Assembly: GCA_022181065.1 (NCBI GenBank)
Contig: BQMY01000075.1
Span: 62,001-126,000, forward strand
Reading direction: 5' to 3'
Length of the DNA: 64,000 bases
From: Melioribacteraceae bacterium
GTDB taxonomy: Bacteria > Bacteroidota > Ignavibacteria > Ignavibacteriales > Melioribacteraceae
The notes under the pieces are model-generated. The model saw only the letters and a program-made list of their open reading frames with translations, was not told the DNA's origin and searched no databases. This document shows, piece after piece, positions 8,741 through 61,567 of the stretch; position 1 is the stretch's first letter, and the number at the start of each line of letters is the position of its first letter. The translations under genes and the position numbers were made by a program.

Positions 8741-8769
8741 AACTAATGTTTCTTTTTCGGGGTAAATTT

Positions 8770-9843
8770 ATGAAAATTATGGTTGTTGAGGATGATGAAA
8801 TGGTACGCGGCAGTCTGGTCGATATACTGGAGACCGCGGACTATGAAGTATTAAGCGCATGCAACGGCGCGATCGCGCTTCGGCAGCTATCCGATGAGTA
8901 TCCTGATTTGATAATTTCTGATATTATGATGCCGGAGATGGATGGGTATTCACTCTACAAGCACATAAGAGAAATGGATCAGGGGAGCGATATACCTTTC
9001 ATTTTTCTTTCCGCAAAAGCCGACTTTAAAGATATACGTCACGGGATGAACATTGGAGCTGATGATTATCTCACGAAACCCTTCAAAGTAAAAGACTTAC
9101 TCCAGGCGATAAATATACGTCTCGACAAAAAAATAAAACAGAAGGAAAAGCTTGACGAGCTTACTGTTTCTTTAGCCAAGTATGTTCCTCACGAATTGCG
9201 TACCCCACTGGTATCAATTCTGGGTTATACGGACTGTATATTAAGTGATTACGACTCTTTCAGCAAGGGAGAGATTCTCACAATGATCTCCCAGATCAAA
9301 AATTCCGGGGATAGATTATTAGACAGAATTCAGAAGTTCATTACTTATGCTGATCTGCAGTCGTTTGAGATAAATTCAGAAATAGAAAGACCGAAGAATC
9401 AAATAGTAGATATAAAAAAACTTATAGATAGACTTGCGGAAAAATATTTTCACAAATATCCGGATGTGAATTATATCTGTAATTTGGAAGCAAGGGAGGT
9501 TAAGGGAGAGGAATATTTACTCGAATATTTGTTTGTAGAATTGATCGAAAACGCGTTCAAATTTTCATCACCTGATTGTGATGAGCCTGTTACTATATCA
9601 AGCAAGCATTCAAACGAAGAAATAACAGTAACTATTTCAAACTGTTCAACTTTCAAAATTCCTTTCCGGTCGATTGAATCGATCCCTGCATTCAAACAAT
9701 TTGATCGCGATATTAACCAGCAAATAGGGAATGGAGTTGGATTAAGTATTGCAGGAAAAGTTTGTGAATTATGTGGTATAAAGTCAAAAATTGTTTCTGA
9801 TAATGAGAAAATTTCTATCTCATTGACATTAAGCGTCAATTAA
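8770..9843 (+). CDS. Receiver-histidine kinase with degenerate ATP lid
   Basis: A 357-residue protein starting at the ATG at 8770 ([10 protein letters not shown]); an in-frame ATG at 8746 would add eight residues not expected before a receiver. The receiver has D51, S81 and K103. A kinase core follows with H141 (HELRTP) and an ATPase domain containing an N box (ELIENAFKF) and a G2 box (GNGVGLSI). The G1 box, normally DxGxG, is replaced by SNCSTFKIP and lacks the Asp that binds adenine. It may bind ATP poorly, act as a phosphotransfer or allosteric partner, or use a changed lid. It lacks a sensor domain, so the receiver is probably its input. Confidence 0.88.
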
Positions 9844-24861: not shown

Positions 24862-25085
24862 AACATGTAATTTCCAGTACCTTTGTGAAAAGCACCTTGA
24901 ACTGCGTGCCTTCATTTTTTTCAGATTCGAATAAAATTTCAGCACCTATAATTGCGGCGTATTTTCCACAAGCGCGAGCCCGAGACCGTTACCCGTGAAT
25001 TTTCTTGTGTATCCTTCATGCGCGTGAGTAAAAGGATGGTGCATTTACTTACCAAAAGCTTCCTTCAAATCACTGCTGATATTGT
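24862..25085 (-). pseudogene. Remnant of a histidine kinase C-terminus
   Basis: Read on the minus strand, this gap contains the end of a HATPase domain: HEGYTRKFTGNGLGLALVE, then KYAAIIGAEILFESEKNEGT and QFKVLF. The two halves are in different frames because one A is missing in an A run (GAAAAT where GAAAAAT would keep the frame), near 24955. A TAA also interrupts the segment just before the MHHPFTHAHEG part (about 25050). No HisKA or sensor part survives and I find no start. This is the decayed 3' end of a sensor kinase. Confidence 0.8.
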
Positions 25086-25260
25086 CTTCAGATTTATCAG
25101 TTAGGCACTAACATAAAAATAATATAATAAATTAAATTCCAAATAAATTCAGACGTGCTTGTTAACTGAAAATTAAGTTTGGGGAGTATAACCTTTTATG
25201 TTGCGTAAATTCCTAAAAGTTATAATATTTCATTGAGAATTTATTTTATAAGAGGAGAAG

Positions 25261-25413
25261 ATGATTCCCGAAGGATTTGACAACGAGTATGATGACCTGA
25301 ATGATGATTTTGAGGAACAGGTCGAAAAGATATTCGATCAATATGATGATGATGAGCTTGAAGATGAATGGGACGAGTTTGACGAAGAAGAATTCCCGGA
25401 TGAGGAAGATTAA
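25261..25413 (+). CDS. Very acidic 50-residue protein, unknown function
   Basis: ATG at 25261 to TAA at 25413 encodes 50 residues, about half Asp or Glu, with only one Lys and no Arg (starts MIPEGFDNEYDD, ends EEFPDEED). AGAGGAG lies just upstream at a good distance, which is the main reason to believe it is translated. No known domain is recognised. The negative charge could suit a DNA mimic, a protein-binding tail or metal binding, but none of these is shown. It stands alone, with the kinase remnant upstream and a convergent gene downstream. Confidence 0.65.
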   Translation: MIPEGFDNEYDDLNDDFEEQVEKIFDQYDDDELEDEWDEFDEEEFPDEED

Positions 25414-25445: not shown

Positions 25446-25477
25446 TATAAAAAGGAACCCGATTATTTTCGGGCTCC
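25446..25477 (-). terminator. Terminator of the UPF0316-like gene
   Basis: On the minus strand GGAGCCCGA (25477-25469) pairs with TCGGGTTCC (25462-25454), one mismatch, followed by TTTTT. The left arm is also the last codons and part of the stop region of the gene ending at 25463, so the terminator overlaps the coding end. Confidence 0.8.
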
Positions 25478-25981
25478 ATGAATAAATCCTCTGTAAGGAC
25501 GTGAATGCTGCACCGTAATAAATGCATCCTGATCGATTGAATTGATCAGCTTAATTACGTTTTTTGCGTCGCGTCTTCTCAAGATCATAAGAATAATATT
25601 TACACCGCCAAATTTACCCTCGGCAGGAAGCATAGTTACTCCGTATTTCGATTCCCGTAAAGTTTCAGCTATTTGAACCGACAGCTTTTTTGAAATTACG
25701 TTCAGCTGCACATAACCGAGAGCAACTTTCTCTTCGAGTGTGATACCGAGCAGATTACCTATACCAAATCCTGCAGCGTATCCAAGAAGATTTAGCGTAT
25801 CGTCCATATTCTGGACAATATATCGCATCGCGAAGATCCAGATAAGTACTTCAAAAAATCCAACTGTTGCCGCAGGATATTTTTTACCCTGAACTACGAG
25901 GATTGTGCGGAATGTGCCCAAAGAAACGTCTGCGATTCGCATTCCCATTATTACAAGGGCACCCAATATAACGTCGATCAT
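25463..25981 (-). CDS. UPF0316 / DUF2179 family membrane protein
   Basis: A 172-residue protein with three hydrophobic segments in the first 95 residues (MIDVILGALVIMGMRIADVS; FFEVLIWIFAMRYI; AAGFGIGNLLG) and a C-terminal cytoplasmic DUF2179 domain (about 105-170). The pattern RIADVSLGTFRTILVVQGKK is typical of the YebE-like UPF0316 family, inner-membrane proteins of unknown function. It is divergent from pcm with 77 bases between them. Confidence 0.88.
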   Translation of the reverse strand: MIDVILGALVIMGMRIADVSLGTFRTILVVQGKKYPAATVGFFEVLIWIFAMRYIVQNMDDTLNLLGYAAGFGIGNLLGITLEEKVALGYVQLNVISKKLSVQIAETLRESKYGVTMLPAEGKFGGVNIILMILRRRDAKNVIKLINSIDQDAFITVQHSRPYRGFIHGARK

Positions 25982-37702: not shown

Positions 37703-37720
37703 GACAAGTTAATAGTTTTC

Positions 37721-37808
37721 AAGTCCTCCTTTTGAAGGAGGTGGATTTCGACGATGGTCGAAAGACGGAGGATGATTCATTGGGTATTTAGACTTTTTGG
37801 TCATCCCC
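37721..37808 (+). repeat. Dispersed palindromic repeat, copy A
   Basis: An 88-bp unit made of paired motifs: CCTCCTT/AAGGAGG, TTTCGAC/GTCGAAA, and an outer CCTCC/GGAGG. It ends GACTTTTTGGTCATCCCC. The same unit recurs at 46585-46668 (close to identical over about 80 bases) and in inverted form at 44486-44542. It fills the gap between the ROK kinase and the NYN gene. It could be a REP- or MITE-type element. No transposase is present. Confidence 0.8.
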
Positions 37809-44485: not shown

Positions 44486-44542
44486 AATCATCCTCCGTCT
44501 CTCGACTGGCTTCGAAATCCACCTCCTTCCGAAGGAAGACCT
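44486..44542 (-). repeat. Dispersed palindromic repeat, copy C (inverted, partial)
   Basis: On the minus strand it reads AGGTCTTCCTTCGGAAGGAGG, then GTGGATTTCGA...TCGAGAGACGGAGGATGATT, matching copies A (37721) and B (46585). The TGACCAAAAAG end is missing. It sits just upstream of the higBA toxin-antitoxin promoter. Confidence 0.7.
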
Positions 44543-46321: not shown

Positions 46322-46667
46322 GAGGCTGACTAAAAAGAGAGCAGTCCCTTGCAAACAGTTTTTGTTTTTCGTTTTTAACTTAAAATTTACAATCATAGAT
46401 TAACGACCATAATAGGCGGGTGAGCCCTTCGACGAGCTCAGGACAACGTCTCTCGCTTGTCCCGCAAGGCGGGGAACCCCCGGAAAAAGCATGATATTAA
46501 ACGAACCCATCCTATCCGCCTGGGGCGGACTTCCCTTTATTAAAGGGAAGGACTTTTGACCTTTGGCAAATCTGCTAGTTTTAAAAGTCCTCCTTCGAAG
46601 GTGGATTTCGACGATAGTCGAAAGACGGAGGATGATTCATTGGGTTTTAGACTTTTTGGTCAGCCCC
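46322..46667. mobile_element. MITE-like element, 346 bp with terminal inverted repeats
   Basis: GAGGCTGACTAAAAAG (46322-46337) and CTTTTTGGTCAGCCCC (46652-46667) are inverted copies matching at 14 of 16 positions. Between them are a run of smaller palindromes and repeat copy B, but no open reading frame of protein-coding type. The structure fits a non-autonomous transposable element. There is no clear target duplication beyond one or two bases. Confidence 0.5.
46515..46550. repeat. Paired palindromes inside the MITE-like element
   Basis: TCCGCC-TGG-GGCGGA (46515-46529) is followed directly by the 21-base palindrome CTTCCCTTTA-T-TAAAGGGAAG (46530-46550). CCCGC-AAG-GCGGG (46461-46473) lies nearby. 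The 21-base palindrome recurs with one change at 46780-46800. Confidence 0.65.
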
Positions 46668-54754: not shown

Positions 54755-57700
54755 TTGCGACCCAAGTTGAGAAAATTACAATTATTGTTGCCGGGCATTG
54801 CTCTGTTTTTACTTACCGGATTTACACTTGTTAGTGATATCGACACTAACTCCGGTTTTAATAACAGAAAACAAGATGCCATTCAGAAAAATTCCCAAAA
54901 TTTAGATAACTCAGCTTTGTCAGAGGGTGGAGCACCGGAAAGAGCATACTTACCGGCCAGATGGAGTCCGTTCGCTGATAGTACTGAAAATTCACCGGGA
55001 GATTCACTTTCACAGGCTGATAGCCTGATGAGTGATTCACTCGCTATCGATTCTTTGGCGATTGATTCTCTTGCGTTAGATTCAATGTCACTCGATTCTA
55101 CCGCACGAATCAAGTTTTTCAAACATCAAAGAAAGCCATCCAGAGCTGTTCCTTTCAGAGAGAAGAAAAAATCTTCATTTTACGTTTATCCTTCTAACCA
55201 GTATGTTAAGAGAAAAGTTGAACTCGATTCTACCGGAACGAATGTAATTATTCAGGAAGAGATAAACGGCAAGGAATTTAAAACTCCAATCATATTGCCT
55301 CTTGACGAGTACATCGCGCAAAATATGGAGGCAATTAACCGAAAAAATTGGGAAGATCTGGGTTATAAATATGAACTTAAAGCCAGCACGAAAGACCTTA
55401 GTCAGTTATTAACAGATATTACGAATATTCAGATACCATTACCAAGTACTTCATTCCTGAGTATATTTGGTCCGCCCGAAATTAACCTTCGTATCAGTGG
55501 AGCTGTTGATATTCATGGCGCGTGGCGAAGTGAAACCACTGAGGGTATTGCGTCTTCCCGTTTGGGAAATACCCGTAACGAACCCGATTTCAAGCAGCAG
55601 GTACAGATTAATGTAAACGGTACTATCGGTGACAAACTTACTATTAATGCCGACTGGAATACTGAACGTACCTTTGAGTATGAAAACCAGTTGAAAATTA
55701 AATATACAGGCTACGAAGATGAAATAGTCCAGAGTGTTGAAGCAGGAAACGTATCCCTGCAGACATCCTCTCTGGTAGGTGGTAGTGAAGCGCTGTTTGG
55801 TGTTAAAGCAAAATTCCAGCTCGGACCATTTTCGCTCACTGCCCTTGCTTCTCAGAAAAAAGGTGAAGTGGAGGAAGTAAGTGTTACAGGCGGTAGTGAA
55901 ACACAGGAATTTGAAATACACGCCTACGAATATTCGCAAAACCACTTTTTTATTGATCAGATTTACGCCGACCCTAATCGCGATTTATTCTTTCGATATT
56001 ATGGAAACGCGGTTCCCGATATTGAGTCAGAATTCCAGATTAAGGATATCGAAGTTTGGAAAACCGCGTCCGGTATTGTGCAATCTGACAAGGAACGCGA
56101 AATTACGGCAATGATTGACCTTCCAGAAAGGGCGCAAGGTGAAAATTTTCTTTATGATGATTTAAGAAATACTTCTGAAGATGAAAATGGACGTACAGTC
56201 GCGAAAGGTCGTTTTATTCAGCTTACCGAAGGTGTGGATTACGAAATAAATGAATATGTAGGTGTAATCAGTTTTAAAACAAGTCTCCAGGCGGAAGACG
56301 CGATAGCTGTTTCGTATCGTCAGGAAGGTCCGAGCGCTGCAACAGCAGACGATGACGTTTATTATGGTGAATTTGTTCGTGAAATAGGACTTGAAGACTC
56401 CACTAAAACTCTCGTCATGAAACTGGTCAAACCACCGAACCTGCAGCCGCAGTTCAGGGACGCATGGCAACTACAGCTTAAAAATATATACCCGATCAAA
56501 GGACGTGATGTAAAAGAAGAAGGTTTTGTACTTGATGTTAACTACATCATCGAAGGGCAGGATCCGGTTACTGAGCTTGGCGGGCAAAAGCTTATTCAGG
56601 CTTTCGGACTTGATAACACAGACGCGAGTCAGCAGGGCGGTCCCGATGGTGCGTTCGATTTTATTCCAGGAAGGACTATTATACCTTCAACCGGTGAGAT
56701 TATTTTCCCCGTGCTCCAGCCATTTGGTGATAATTTCCCTGAAAACCTGAGTGATTCACTGCGATACAACGCGGTTTATGATACTACTGTTACTTTTGCC
56801 AAGCAGGATAGGGCAAAAGACAAGTTTATAATTACCGGTGAATATTCCGCGTCGGTAACATCGGTTTACAACATCGGGTTTAACGTGGTTGAAAACTCCG
56901 CCAAAGTTTATCTAAACGGTAACGAACTCCGTGAAGGAAGTGACTACTCCGTTGACTATAACATTGGTCAGATTACAATCCGTAATGACGCGGCTCTCGT
57001 TCCAGGTGCTGATTTGAAAATCACCTACGAGAAAAATGATCTTTTCGCTTTAGCTTCGAAAACCCTTATCGGTTTCCGTGGGCTGTATGAGTTTAATAAA
57101 GATACCAGATTAGGTTTCTCTTATCTTAACCTGAATCAGCAGACACTTTCCGACAAAGTAAGAATTGGTGAAGAACCTTTGAATAACTCCATATTCGGGT
57201 TGGACTTCGCCACCGCGGTGGAATTACCATTCGTTACAAAAGCTCTTGATAATGTGATCTCAACCAAGACAATGTCACGCATGACTCTGAAAGGTGAATA
57301 TGCTTACATGGATCCCGAACCCAACACCAAGTCGAGTACCATCGAGAGTGACGGAGGGAAATCAATAGCGTATATCGATGATTTTGAAGGATCCAAGAGA
57401 ATTATTCCTATTGGAATTGCCGATCGCGGATGGAAAGACTTGTCGCCGCCGTTATCACTTGTTCCGGCAGGTGACGGACCAGCGGATATCATGCGCTACA
57501 AAGCCAAAAGTTACTGGTTTAATATCATCCCCTCAGAAACGCGAATTCAGGATATCTGGGGTGACAGAAAGCAGGTTTCTCGCGAGGATGAACAGGTTAC
57601 CGTACTTGATTATGTTTTTGAACCAACTGAGCGTGGTACTTACAACCTCAATCCTGAAATTGAGAACCCGATGCAGAACTGGGGTGGTATGATGAAAATA

Positions 57701-60700
57701 CTTTCTTCAACCGCTAATAACCTTGTTGAAGAAAATGTTGAATTTATTGAATTTTGGCTCAACATATCCAACGCTCCCGAAGGCGCTAAACTTAATATTG
57801 ATTTGGGACAGATAAGTGAAGACGTAATCCCTAACAATCAGCTCGATACGGAGGATAAAAACCAGAATGACCTTGAAGAAGAAGGTGAAGATACCGGTAT
57901 TGACGGTCTCTTCAACGAACAGGAAGAAGGTTATGATCCTGTAAACAATCCTGATCCTGCTGGTGATGACTTTTCAGTTAATATTCAGGCAGTTGACTAT
58001 AGAAATGTAAATGGCACGGAAAATAACGCCGAATACAGAAACGCGGGTATTAAACTACCGGATAGTGAGGATCTTAATCGTAACTTTACACTTAACATAG
58101 TGAATAGTTACTTTCGCTATGAACTTGAACTCGATACAAACAGTCTTTCGAATCCGTTTATTTCCGGGGAAGGCGAAAATGGCTGGTATCAGTTCAGAAT
58201 TCCTCTGAAAGACTGGAAGGAAAAAATCGGTGATCCTTCGTTTTCTGTTGTAGAATTTATCAGAGTTTGGTTTAGTGAAGTAAATAGTTCGGTTCACCTG
58301 CGGTTTGCAGAGTTTAACCTTGTCGGTAACCAGTGGCAGAAGCAGCTAACCACAACTGTTACAGAAGATGATGAAGTTCTCACACTTGGTACAATAAACG
58401 TTGAGGATAATCCGACTTATGTTAGTCCTCCCGGAGTAAACCGAGAACGAGATCGCTCAAAACCTGATGAAGAAGTTTATAAAAATGAACAATCTTTACA
58501 GTTAATTATTAATGATCTCGAAGATGGTGACTATCGTGAGGTTGTGAAATATCTCTACAGACCTCTTGACGTTTTTAACTACAAAGAGATGAAGCTTTTC
58601 ATACATGGTGATGAGGCGGCTATTCCCGGTGATGTTTCCTACTTCATGAATGATGATGATTATGGAAGTGAAGTTTATTTCAGGTTTGGTTCCGATAGTT
58701 TGAACTTCTATGAATACAGGCAGCCGGTAAAACCTGACTGGAATGAAATCCGGATGGTATTTAAAGAGTTGACCGCTATCAAGCAGGCGAGAACAAGGGT
58801 TGATTCAATTTATACTCAGGAAGTGCCGGGTGAACCGGGGCACAGTTATGGTATTAAAGGTAATCCGAGTTTGACGAAAGTTACTTTCTTCACCGTGGGG
58901 ATTATCAACCCGAAAAATAAAGGTGAAGCCGGGCGACAGGTTTCAGGTGAGTTGTGGATAAATGAACTTCGTGTTCTCGACGCTGAAAATACTCCCGGTT
59001 GGGCATATAGCGCATCTACTTCTTTCCAGATGGCTGATTTTATTACCTTTAATTTTAATATGAGTCAGACAGACCCATATTTCCATCGCTTGAGTGAAAG
59101 ATTCGGTTCAAGAATCGATAGACGTTCGTGGGGTGGCGGTTTTGATATGGATGTGCTCAAGCTAATTCCCGGTAATTTACAGGGAAGTAACCTTCGTGTA
59201 AATTATTCGAGAACAGAATCTGTTTCCAAACCGCAGTTCCTTCCCGGAACAGATATCGAGGTTAATTCCGCTGTGGAACAGGAGCAGATCAAGCTCGTAA
59301 ATCAGGGTGTTGAACAGGAGGAAGCTCAACGTCTGGCGAATGAGGTGCGTGACAGGACTTACACGATAAATGTTTCAGATTCATGGTCGCTTTCAAATAT
59401 CAAATTTAAGATACCTTCAAACGCCTGGTATATCCGCGATACATTTAACAGTCTGAGTTTTAATTTTAACTTCAATAAAACTTACAGCCGTAACCCTAAC
59501 ACATTAAACAGTAACAGCTGGGTTTGGAACGCGAGCGCAAAATACGCGATAAACCTGAGCAAGGATTATTTCTTCTATCCCGCGAACATTCCAATTTTGG
59601 GATACGTGTTTGGTATATTTGAAGATTACCGCAACGTAAAAGTTTATTATACTCCCGCAAACTTCAGTAGTGGTTTGTCAGCAAAAAGGAACTATTCATT
59701 TACTCAGACAAGAAGCACACAATCAGCGCCAAGTATTCAGCGAGATTTTACATCTACACGTAATTTCAGTTTTAACTGGATATTCACAGAAGGCGGATTT
59801 TTAAATCTCGGATTAGATTACAATGCCGATTTTCAATCGTCACTTGCATACTTACTCACACGTGAACTTAGTGAGGATAATCTTATTCCGAGAACCGAAA
59901 GTGAAATCTGGGCAGATATATTTGGTGGCGCCTACTTTGGTAAGGATTACAATTTCCGCCAGGCGTTTAACTTGAAAGCCAATCCAAAACTACCAACTTT
60001 GTGGGATTTGAATAAATTTTTCCAGATTACAATGGGATATTCCGCCAATTACAACTGGCAGTTCAATTTCCAGCAGGAGGAGCTGGGGCGTTCCGCGGGG
60101 TATTCCAACCGAATTAACGCGGGATTGACACTACGACTAAAATCATTGTTTGAACCTCTGTTTGAGTCTGGTCCTTCTACCAAAAACCCTACCATCAATC
60201 CGCCAAAAAATCAAAGGGGAAGAGGTAGAGGAAGAACAGGTACGCAGGATGAAACAAATGAAGAAGATGATATTAACCGCGAAGTAGCAGATACAACAAG
60301 CGGGAAACCTTCGGCATTGATGCGCGCATTGAATGCGCTGACGGCCGGCGCACACTATTTCTTGTTCAACTACGACCAGATATCCGCTAACTTTACGCAG
60401 ACAAATTCTCTATCCGGTTCAGGTATTGCGGCGGAAGGAACAGGTTTTAATAATTTCTGGGGATTCACGCAGAAAGATCAAAATGGTCCTTCCCGCGCGT
60501 TTATGCTCGGTTTTGATAATGAGCTCGGTCCACGTGCTGCAGGTGGTAATTTATCGAATAATTTTAGTCAGAAAAATACACTCGATTTCAAAACTTCACG
60601 ACCTCTCTGGGAAGGCGCGAATATCGACTTGAACTGGCGTGTGGCGTGGGGTATTAATAAAACAACAAAAATCCAGACAGATTCACTTGGTAACGCTCTG

Positions 60701-61567
60701 ATCACCGGTGTAAACTCAACGGGAAATATTGACAGAACATTTCTTTCATTCCCGCCGTCATTCTTCCTTTCTGTTTTCAACAGTGGAATAGTGAGAGTGA
60801 ATGAACTTTACGATCCTGAAGCGGAAGACCCCGCCAGGAATCTCTCAGACGCGTTTGTGCAGGGATTTGAAAGTTTACCGATCTTCTCGAAAATACCGTT
60901 CCTCGCTGATTTCGCGAGATTTATGCCTCGTCCTAACTGGCGTTTCAGATGGTCGGGATTAGAGAAGTTCTCCTTCTTCAAAAGTTTCGCGAAACGTGTG
61001 TCAATCAACCACGGATATTCATCCAGCTTTACAGAAGGGTGGAAAATTGACCCTGATGGTAACGAAGTTATTCAGACACAAAAAATCAATTATGGCTTTT
61101 CACCATTACTCGGGCTCGATGTTACCTTTGAATCGCTCTGGGGCGGAGACCTTACCGCCGGTGTGAAGTTTAATACAAAAACGTCATACGATTTGCAGAT
61201 ATCAACCAGAAACATTACCGAGTCATTCTCAAAAGATATAAATATCACGGCAAGTTACTCGAAACGTGGCTTTAATATTCCGCTATTCGGTATCTCATTG
61301 CAGAACGACCTTGAATTTTCATTCTCTTACACGAGTGGTAATAACTCGGTACTGATTTTTGAAATGGATAACTTCAAGGAGGAAGGAAAACCGCAGGATG
61401 GTACGATAAGAACGACCATTGAGCCTCGTGTGAAATATGTGATGAGCCAGAGAGTAACTTTATCACTCTTCTACAAAATGACAACGGTTGAGCCTGAAGG
61501 TGCCGCGCGAATTCCTCCAACCTCCACAAACGAAGCGGGTCTGGACGTACATATTTCAATTCAATAG
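54755..61567 (+). CDS. sprA: SprA/Sov, type IX secretion outer-membrane translocon
   Basis: A 2270-residue protein, in the usual size range of SprA, the giant 36-strand barrel through which T9SS clients cross the outer membrane. After a signal-like hydrophobic segment (LLLPGIALFLLTGFTL) come a Ser/Asp-rich linker with five DSLAID-like repeats (about 85-115), SprA-type N-terminal domains, and long barrel-type strands to the end (IPPTSTNEAGLDVHISIQ). The start is TTG at 54755; no ATG with a ribosome-binding site was found, so a nearby TTG (54767) is possible. porX follows after 9 bases. Confidence 0.93.
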   Translation: MRPKLRKLQLLLPGIALFLLTGFTLVSDIDTNSGFNNRKQDAIQKNSQNLDNSALSEGGAPERAYLPARWSPFADSTENSPGDSLSQADSLMSDSLAIDSLAIDSLALDSMSLDSTARIKFFKHQRKPSRAVPFREKKKSSFYVYPSNQYVKRKVELDSTGTNVIIQEEINGKEFKTPIILPLDEYIAQNMEAINRKNWEDLGYKYELKASTKDLSQLLTDITNIQIPLPSTSFLSIFGPPEINLRISGAVDIHGAWRSETTEGIASSRLGNTRNEPDFKQQVQINVNGTIGDKLTINADWNTERTFEYENQLKIKYTGYEDEIVQSVEAGNVSLQTSSLVGGSEALFGVKAKFQLGPFSLTALASQKKGEVEEVSVTGGSETQEFEIHAYEYSQNHFFIDQIYADPNRDLFFRYYGNAVPDIESEFQIKDIEVWKTASGIVQSDKEREITAMIDLPERAQGENFLYDDLRNTSEDENGRTVAKGRFIQLTEGVDYEINEYVGVISFKTSLQAEDAIAVSYRQEGPSAATADDDVYYGEFVREIGLEDSTKTLVMKLVKPPNLQPQFRDAWQLQLKNIYPIKGRDVKEEGFVLDVNYIIEGQDPVTELGGQKLIQAFGLDNTDASQQGGPDGAFDFIPGRTIIPSTGEIIFPVLQPFGDNFPENLSDSLRYNAVYDTTVTFAKQDRAKDKFIITGEYSASVTSVYNIGFNVVENSAKVYLNGNELREGSDYSVDYNIGQITIRNDAALVPGADLKITYEKNDLFALASKTLIGFRGLYEFNKDTRLGFSYLNLNQQTLSDKVRIGEEPLNNSIFGLDFATAVELPFVTKALDNVISTKTMSRMTLKGEYAYMDPEPNTKSSTIESDGGKSIAYIDDFEGSKRIIPIGIADRGWKDLSPPLSLVPAGDGPADIMRYKAKSYWFNIIPSETRIQDIWGDRKQVSREDEQVTVLDYVFEPTERGTYNLNPEIENPMQNWGGMMKILSSTANNLVEENVEFIEFWLNISNAPEGAKLNIDLGQISEDVIPNNQLDTEDKNQNDLEEEGEDTGIDGLFNEQEEGYDPVNNPDPAGDDFSVNIQAVDYRNVNGTENNAEYRNAGIKLPDSEDLNRNFTLNIVNSYFRYELELDTNSLSNPFISGEGENGWYQFRIPLKDWKEKIGDPSFSVVEFIRVWFSEVNSSVHLRFAEFNLVGNQWQKQLTTTVTEDDEVLTLGTINVEDNPTYVSPPGVNRERDRSKPDEEVYKNEQSLQLIINDLEDGDYREVVKYLYRPLDVFNYKEMKLFIHGDEAAIPGDVSYFMNDDDYGSEVYFRFGSDSLNFYEYRQPVKPDWNEIRMVFKELTAIKQARTRVDSIYTQEVPGEPGHSYGIKGNPSLTKVTFFTVGIINPKNKGEAGRQVSGELWINELRVLDAENTPGWAYSASTSFQMADFITFNFNMSQTDPYFHRLSERFGSRIDRRSWGGGFDMDVLKLIPGNLQGSNLRVNYSRTESVSKPQFLPGTDIEVNSAVEQEQIKLVNQGVEQEEAQRLANEVRDRTYTINVSDSWSLSNIKFKIPSNAWYIRDTFNSLSFNFNFNKTYSRNPNTLNSNSWVWNASAKYAINLSKDYFFYPANIPILGYVFGIFEDYRNVKVYYTPANFSSGLSAKRNYSFTQTRSTQSAPSIQRDFTSTRNFSFNWIFTEGGFLNLGLDYNADFQSSLAYLLTRELSEDNLIPRTESEIWADIFGGAYFGKDYNFRQAFNLKANPKLPTLWDLNKFFQITMGYSANYNWQFNFQQEELGRSAGYSNRINAGLTLRLKSLFEPLFESGPSTKNPTINPPKNQRGRGRGRTGTQDETNEEDDINREVADTTSGKPSALMRALNALTAGAHYFLFNYDQISANFTQTNSLSGSGIAAEGTGFNNFWGFTQKDQNGPSRAFMLGFDNELGPRAAGGNLSNNFSQKNTLDFKTSRPLWEGANIDLNWRVAWGINKTTKIQTDSLGNALITGVNSTGNIDRTFLSFPPSFFLSVFNSGIVRVNELYDPEAEDPARNLSDAFVQGFESLPIFSKIPFLADFARFMPRPNWRFRWSGLEKFSFFKSFAKRVSINHGYSSSFTEGWKIDPDGNEVIQTQKINYGFSPLLGLDVTFESLWGGDLTAGVKFNTKTSYDLQISTRNITESFSKDINITASYSKRGFNIPLFGISLQNDLEFSFSYTSGNNSVLIFEMDNFKEEGKPQDGTIRTTIEPRVKYVMSQRVTLSLFYKMTTVEPEGAARIPPTSTNEAGLDVHISIQ

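Follow-up and report, generated by a model that had tools for sequence, protein, structure and literature searches.

A hyperacidic 50-residue open reading frame in a Melioribacteraceae genome is a candidate lineage-restricted protein

The delta subunit of Bacillus RNA polymerase (RpoE) ends in an acidic tail, dense in Asp and Glu and with scattered aromatic residues, which is the tail of a folded protein. LysW, the amino-group carrier, is a small acidic chromosomal protein that is also found in the Melioribacteraceae; the lysW gene of a relative (genome G008, L139:9236-9403, minus strand) is the most acidic small open reading frame (ORF) in a 400-kb sample, with 29% Asp plus Glu (D+E). Phage T7 gp5.9, a DNA mimic that inhibits RecBCD, is reported to be a small acidic protein of pI 4.0 that forms a parallel coiled-coil dimer, with residues 1-49 modelled, and to block the DNA site of RecBCD (PMC9836394).

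We analyzed a 64,000-nucleotide stretch of a Melioribacteraceae bacterium (hereafter the window), in which a hyperacidic ORF is surrounded by the following features.

24863-25044, minus strand: degraded stretch, with a frameshift and stops, in which the last part of a histidine-kinase ATPase domain is weakly recognisable
25221-25226, plus strand: TATAAT hexamer, a possible -10 element, spotted by eye and absent from the list of the promoter scan
25253-25257, plus strand: AGGAG, a Shine-Dalgarno (SD)-like site, 3 nt before the ATG
25261-25413, plus strand: hyperacidic ORF, stop codon included; 50 aa with 14 Asp, 14 Glu and 1 Lys
25454-25477, minus strand: terminator-like hairpin with a T-run; one such site against 0.5 expected in shuffled sequences
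25463-25981, minus strand: convergent gene for a DUF5698/DUF2179 protein (Pfam) downstream of the acidic ORF, used as the syntenic anchor of the conservation test

The original prediction of a very acidic 50-residue protein, with charged residues almost all Asp or Glu, was exact in coordinates, strand and composition. The frame runs from an ATG through 50 codons to a TAA, and 28 of the 50 residues (56%) are acidic, with a single Lys and no Arg or His. The product would have a pI of 4.05 and a net charge of ∼-27 at pH 7, as computed. An in-frame TAA lies four codons 5′ of the ATG, so that the open frame spans 53 codons; the three codons in between hold no possible start, and a longer version of the ORF is therefore impossible.

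The acidic protein and gp5.9 are alike in being small and exceptionally acidic; gp5.9 is described as helical with an acidic outer surface (PMC9836394), whereas the helices of the acidic protein come from a low-confidence model. Unlike gp5.9, the acidic ORF is chromosomal, and the Pfam names of the scanned neighbours are not those of phage genes. It also differs in having no match among phage records or viral structures and a best PHROGs match, to an HTH family, at E 0.13. As judged from these sequence searches, no relation was found and the acidic protein is not shown to belong to the gp5.9 family. LysW is a zinc-ribbon protein (PF21344) with a match to TIGR01206; the acidic protein is devoid of Cys and has no family match, and the identity of a LysW/ArgW carrier was rejected on the lack of Cys pairs or a zinc ribbon and of a TIGR01206 match. 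The resemblance to the RpoE tail lies in Asp/Glu density and scattered aromatic residues, but the acidic ORF is free-standing.

We then compared the acidic ORF with what chance would yield. In samples from this genome and two relatives, the 6,661 other small ORFs (30-130 aa) all stayed below 30% D+E. Contig 75 contributed 1,446 ORFs in 200 kb, among which the acidic ORF alone reached at least 30%, and the further samples comprised 688 and 2,751 ORFs of G008, 601 of G035 and 1,176 from 20 other contigs of the same genome; the own-genome count covers ∼379 kb of a 4.9-Mb genome (164 contigs). Dinucleotide shuffling of the 153 nt, repeated 2,000 times, never yielded 30 or more open codons in a row with a D+E content of 56% or higher (maximum 47%). 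A simple-repeat origin by recent expansion of GAN triplets was rejected, as the acidic ORF contains no tandem repeat. Asp is encoded by GAT at 10 of 14 positions and Glu by GAA at 9 of 14, compared with fractions of 0.75 and 0.73 in the long ORFs of the contig.

The hydrophobic residues fall on one face of a helix. The best 22-residue helical moment was 0.586, against a mean of 0.346 for shuffles (P 0.006), and an 18-residue window gave P 0.014 against shuffles of the same residues. Residues 6-28 gave P 0.0002, a value for a segment that was picked after looking. Neither the chain as a whole (100 degrees; P 0.20) nor the second helix by itself (P 0.06) was significantly amphipathic. A single-sequence AlphaFold model placed helices at residues 7-27 and 30-44 with low confidence (mean pLDDT 67), so that the computed helices are a weak prediction. 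The model had no match in a Foldseek search of a viral structure library. Searched by sequence, solved structures gave a single match, to a designed maquette at E 9.1.

Expression signals around the ORF are mixed. The AGGAG motif is complementary to the 3′ end of the genome's own 16S rRNA (GGATCACCTCCTTTCT), and to this extent the ribosome-binding site of the original prediction is a good one; to call it strong is a little generous, since the 3-nt spacer is slightly short when compared with the 4-9 nt (n = 8) found in contig ORFs of at least 250 aa with AGGAG or GGAGG within 20 nt of the start. Of 97 long ORFs, 31 have an SD-like motif ahead of them, a count that is probably too low because the first possible start was taken in each, vs. 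11% of shuffled upstream stretches; this excess indicates that SD sites are informative to some degree in this genome. The promoter scan of the region returned two promoter-like sites, neither at 25221-25226, against a shuffle mean of 2.5. The hairpin at 25454-25477 lies on the minus strand and would thus terminate the convergent gene rather than the acidic ORF.

Homologues were sought at several depths. At E 0.01 no match was found in 57 other genomes of relatives; at E 10, 12 of 115 others had matches (best 0.124), none of them taken as a homologue: 11 lie inside frames of at least 164 codons, and the twelfth (G113) lies in a frame of 70 codons that is cut by the start of its contig and has 16 acidic residues among 45. 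At E 0.3, matches were obtained in 14 of 394 other genomes of the phylum sample (best 0.040) and in 24 of 390 of the class sample (best 0.0104). In the 30 phylum and class loci inspected (L099-L128), every ORF of 30-130 aa had less than 30% D+E; five class-sample matches came without a locus, of which one (G380) is locus L110 of the phylum sample and four stayed uninspected. Pattern searches returned 58 stretches in GTDB contigs, none confirmed at E 1e-3, and nine in viral contigs, none confirmed. Neither 50,697 phage records nor plasmids gave a match at E 10, in searches in which the BLAST low-complexity filter may mask the query, which makes the phage comparison a weak one. A degenerate DNA pattern for residues 29-45, with up to three mismatches, was found in the own genome and in none of 78 other family genomes; among these 79 genomes, that of the window is the sole member of its genus.

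Synteny gave a similar picture. No acidic frame was present beside any of 36 distinct DUF2179 gene copies (maximum 23% D+E), when frames of at least 25 codons were considered over a 3′ flank of at most 1,500 nt; at least 800 nt were available for 31 of the copies, and the 36 are those with a locus at hand rather than every match found. The closest DUF2179 copies lie in GTDB records titled Melioribacter roseus, Melioribacteraceae, Stygiobacter electus, Ignavibacteria or Ignavibacteriales, and Bacteroidetes. For the acidic protein, no Pfam family was found at E 0.1, NCBIfam at E 1 returned only TIGR03112 (E 0.24; 11.7 bits, cut-off 69.35), and three Rfam matches (E 0.37-0.68) all fell under the gathering score. 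Literature searches returned no title on the acidic protein. A frame conserved in relatives, which the original prediction had set as a check, was thus not found in the family, order, class and phylum samples, with same-genus genomes lying outside them. A low-complexity query of 50 aa is hard to detect after divergence. As no homologue was found, selection on the acidic protein is not demonstrated, and from these searches we read the ORF as a lineage-restricted orphan.

Upstream of the acidic ORF lie an Fn3/Ig protein of the secreted type that bears a Por secretion tail, a C_GCAxxG_C_C protein and then the degraded stretch. By its motif, the latter reads like the closing part of a histidine-kinase ATPase domain; one of its two stop-free pieces had no Pfam match and the other matched HATPase_c below threshold (E 0.065, 14.1 bits vs. 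a cut-off of 26.4). The kinase remnant noted in the original prediction is therefore a plausible reading across the frameshift that has weak backing in one of the two pieces. Past the DUF2179 gene, Pfam identifies PCMT, followed by genes that presumably are miaA, a DUF1446-like gene and prfB; DUF2179, PCMT and miaA adjoin each other in 12 of 14 relatives compared. The neighbours named by Pfam (the C_GCAxxG_C_C protein, DUF2179, PCMT and two secreted-type proteins) do not name a partner.

A search for an association with defence gave no lead: among ten window proteins scanned with padloc, which did not include the immediate neighbours of the acidic ORF, only that at 8746-9840 gave matches (best PD-T4-6, E 4.5e-06), and by Pfam it is a response-regulator/histidine-kinase hybrid. 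Elsewhere the window encodes a 79-aa Phd/YefM-type antitoxin (PF02604; 45604-45843, plus strand) and a protein of 2,270 aa that carries an SprA_N domain (motility/secretion; 54755-61567, plus strand) and internally reaches 36% D+E in 50 residues. A dispersed DNA repeat of ∼130 bp was also observed: a 250-bp query matched 14 other pieces at 75-99% identity in 379 kb of the own genome (copies include L168:10258-10388, L166:8893-9022 and L083:8542-8667), matches of L083 and L082 lie near window positions 37713-37808, 44486-44540 and 46542-46667, and short frames inside the repeat read VDFDDSRKTEDD-like.

That the acidic ORF arose by chance or is decaying, within variable intergenic DNA, and is untranslated or functionless, has about one chance in three. 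The lack of an acidic frame at the syntenic place of all 36 gene copies and of a homologue elsewhere fits this explanation, as do the adjoining pseudogene-like DNA, the short SD spacing and a promoter signal not above chance; a 53-codon open frame alone is not rare, given the number of small ORFs on the contig. Composition, codon choice and amphipathicity oppose it, and the ATG and SD motif are intact. The antisense strand offers another product, a hydrophobic 31-aa peptide of the type-I-toxin sort (25246-25341, minus strand), and the frame is indeed open and very hydrophobic. Its hydrophobicity, however, follows automatically from the in-frame Asp and Glu codons opposite, as GAN reads NTC, and it would begin at a TTG with no AGGA, GGAG or GAGG in the preceding 20 nt, which makes a functional antisense peptide very improbable.

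The ORF might instead be a translated orphan whose product is a disordered polyanion that buffers cations (Mg2+, metal ions) or solubilises basic proteins with no specific mimicry. We consider this possible, at low confidence: the composition data suit it equally and the mean pLDDT is compatible with it, but a disordered polyanion has no need of a regular helical hydrophobic stripe. EF-hand loops carry the motif DxDxDG, which was not seen by eye, and Cys and His are both missing, further points against this explanation. Together, the outlier composition, the absence of a tandem repeat, the genome-like Asp and Glu codons and the helical stripe favour a real protein. These data suggest that (i) the short, very acidic gene is probably real, as originally predicted, with backing from composition, codon choice and amphipathicity; (ii) it rather likely encodes a real protein of a narrow lineage; and (iii) it is probably translated, into a free protein of 50 aa. 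The DNA mimicry, chaperoning and metal binding that had been put forward as roles cannot be separated, since there is no homologue, domain, informative neighbour or confident fold.

Because T7 gp5.9 is the closest working analogue known to us, we commit, with low confidence, to a helical polyanion that would occupy the basic nucleic-acid-binding surface of a partner in the manner of gp5.9, a tentative proposal by analogy. Residues 6-28 would make up an amphipathic helix whose hydrophobic stripe comprises F6, Y10, L13, F17, V21, I24 and Y28, the other residues being mostly acidic, and a second short helix (30-44) would bear L33, W37 and F40. Either two chains or the two helices may pack along the stripe, which would expose a dense negative surface; this surface could then occupy the basic surface of the partner and compete with DNA or RNA. 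Self-association, partner and mimicry are all putative. We regard the helical polyanion, the disordered polyanion and a non-functional frame as about equally likely. An improbable, more specific version is that a young genus- or species-specific gene, born in degenerating DNA between genes, encodes a free-standing coiled-coil polyanion which, by mimicking nucleic acid, controls a DNA- or RNA-binding protein of the host.

Gene finders readily overlook small hyperacidic proteins, as do sequence searches with low-complexity masking. If the frame is not translated, it is just another unconserved open frame. If it is translated and its product binds a nucleic-acid-binding protein, the acidic ORF would be a chromosomal counterpart to the DNA mimics of phages and would exemplify a small gene specific to one lineage.
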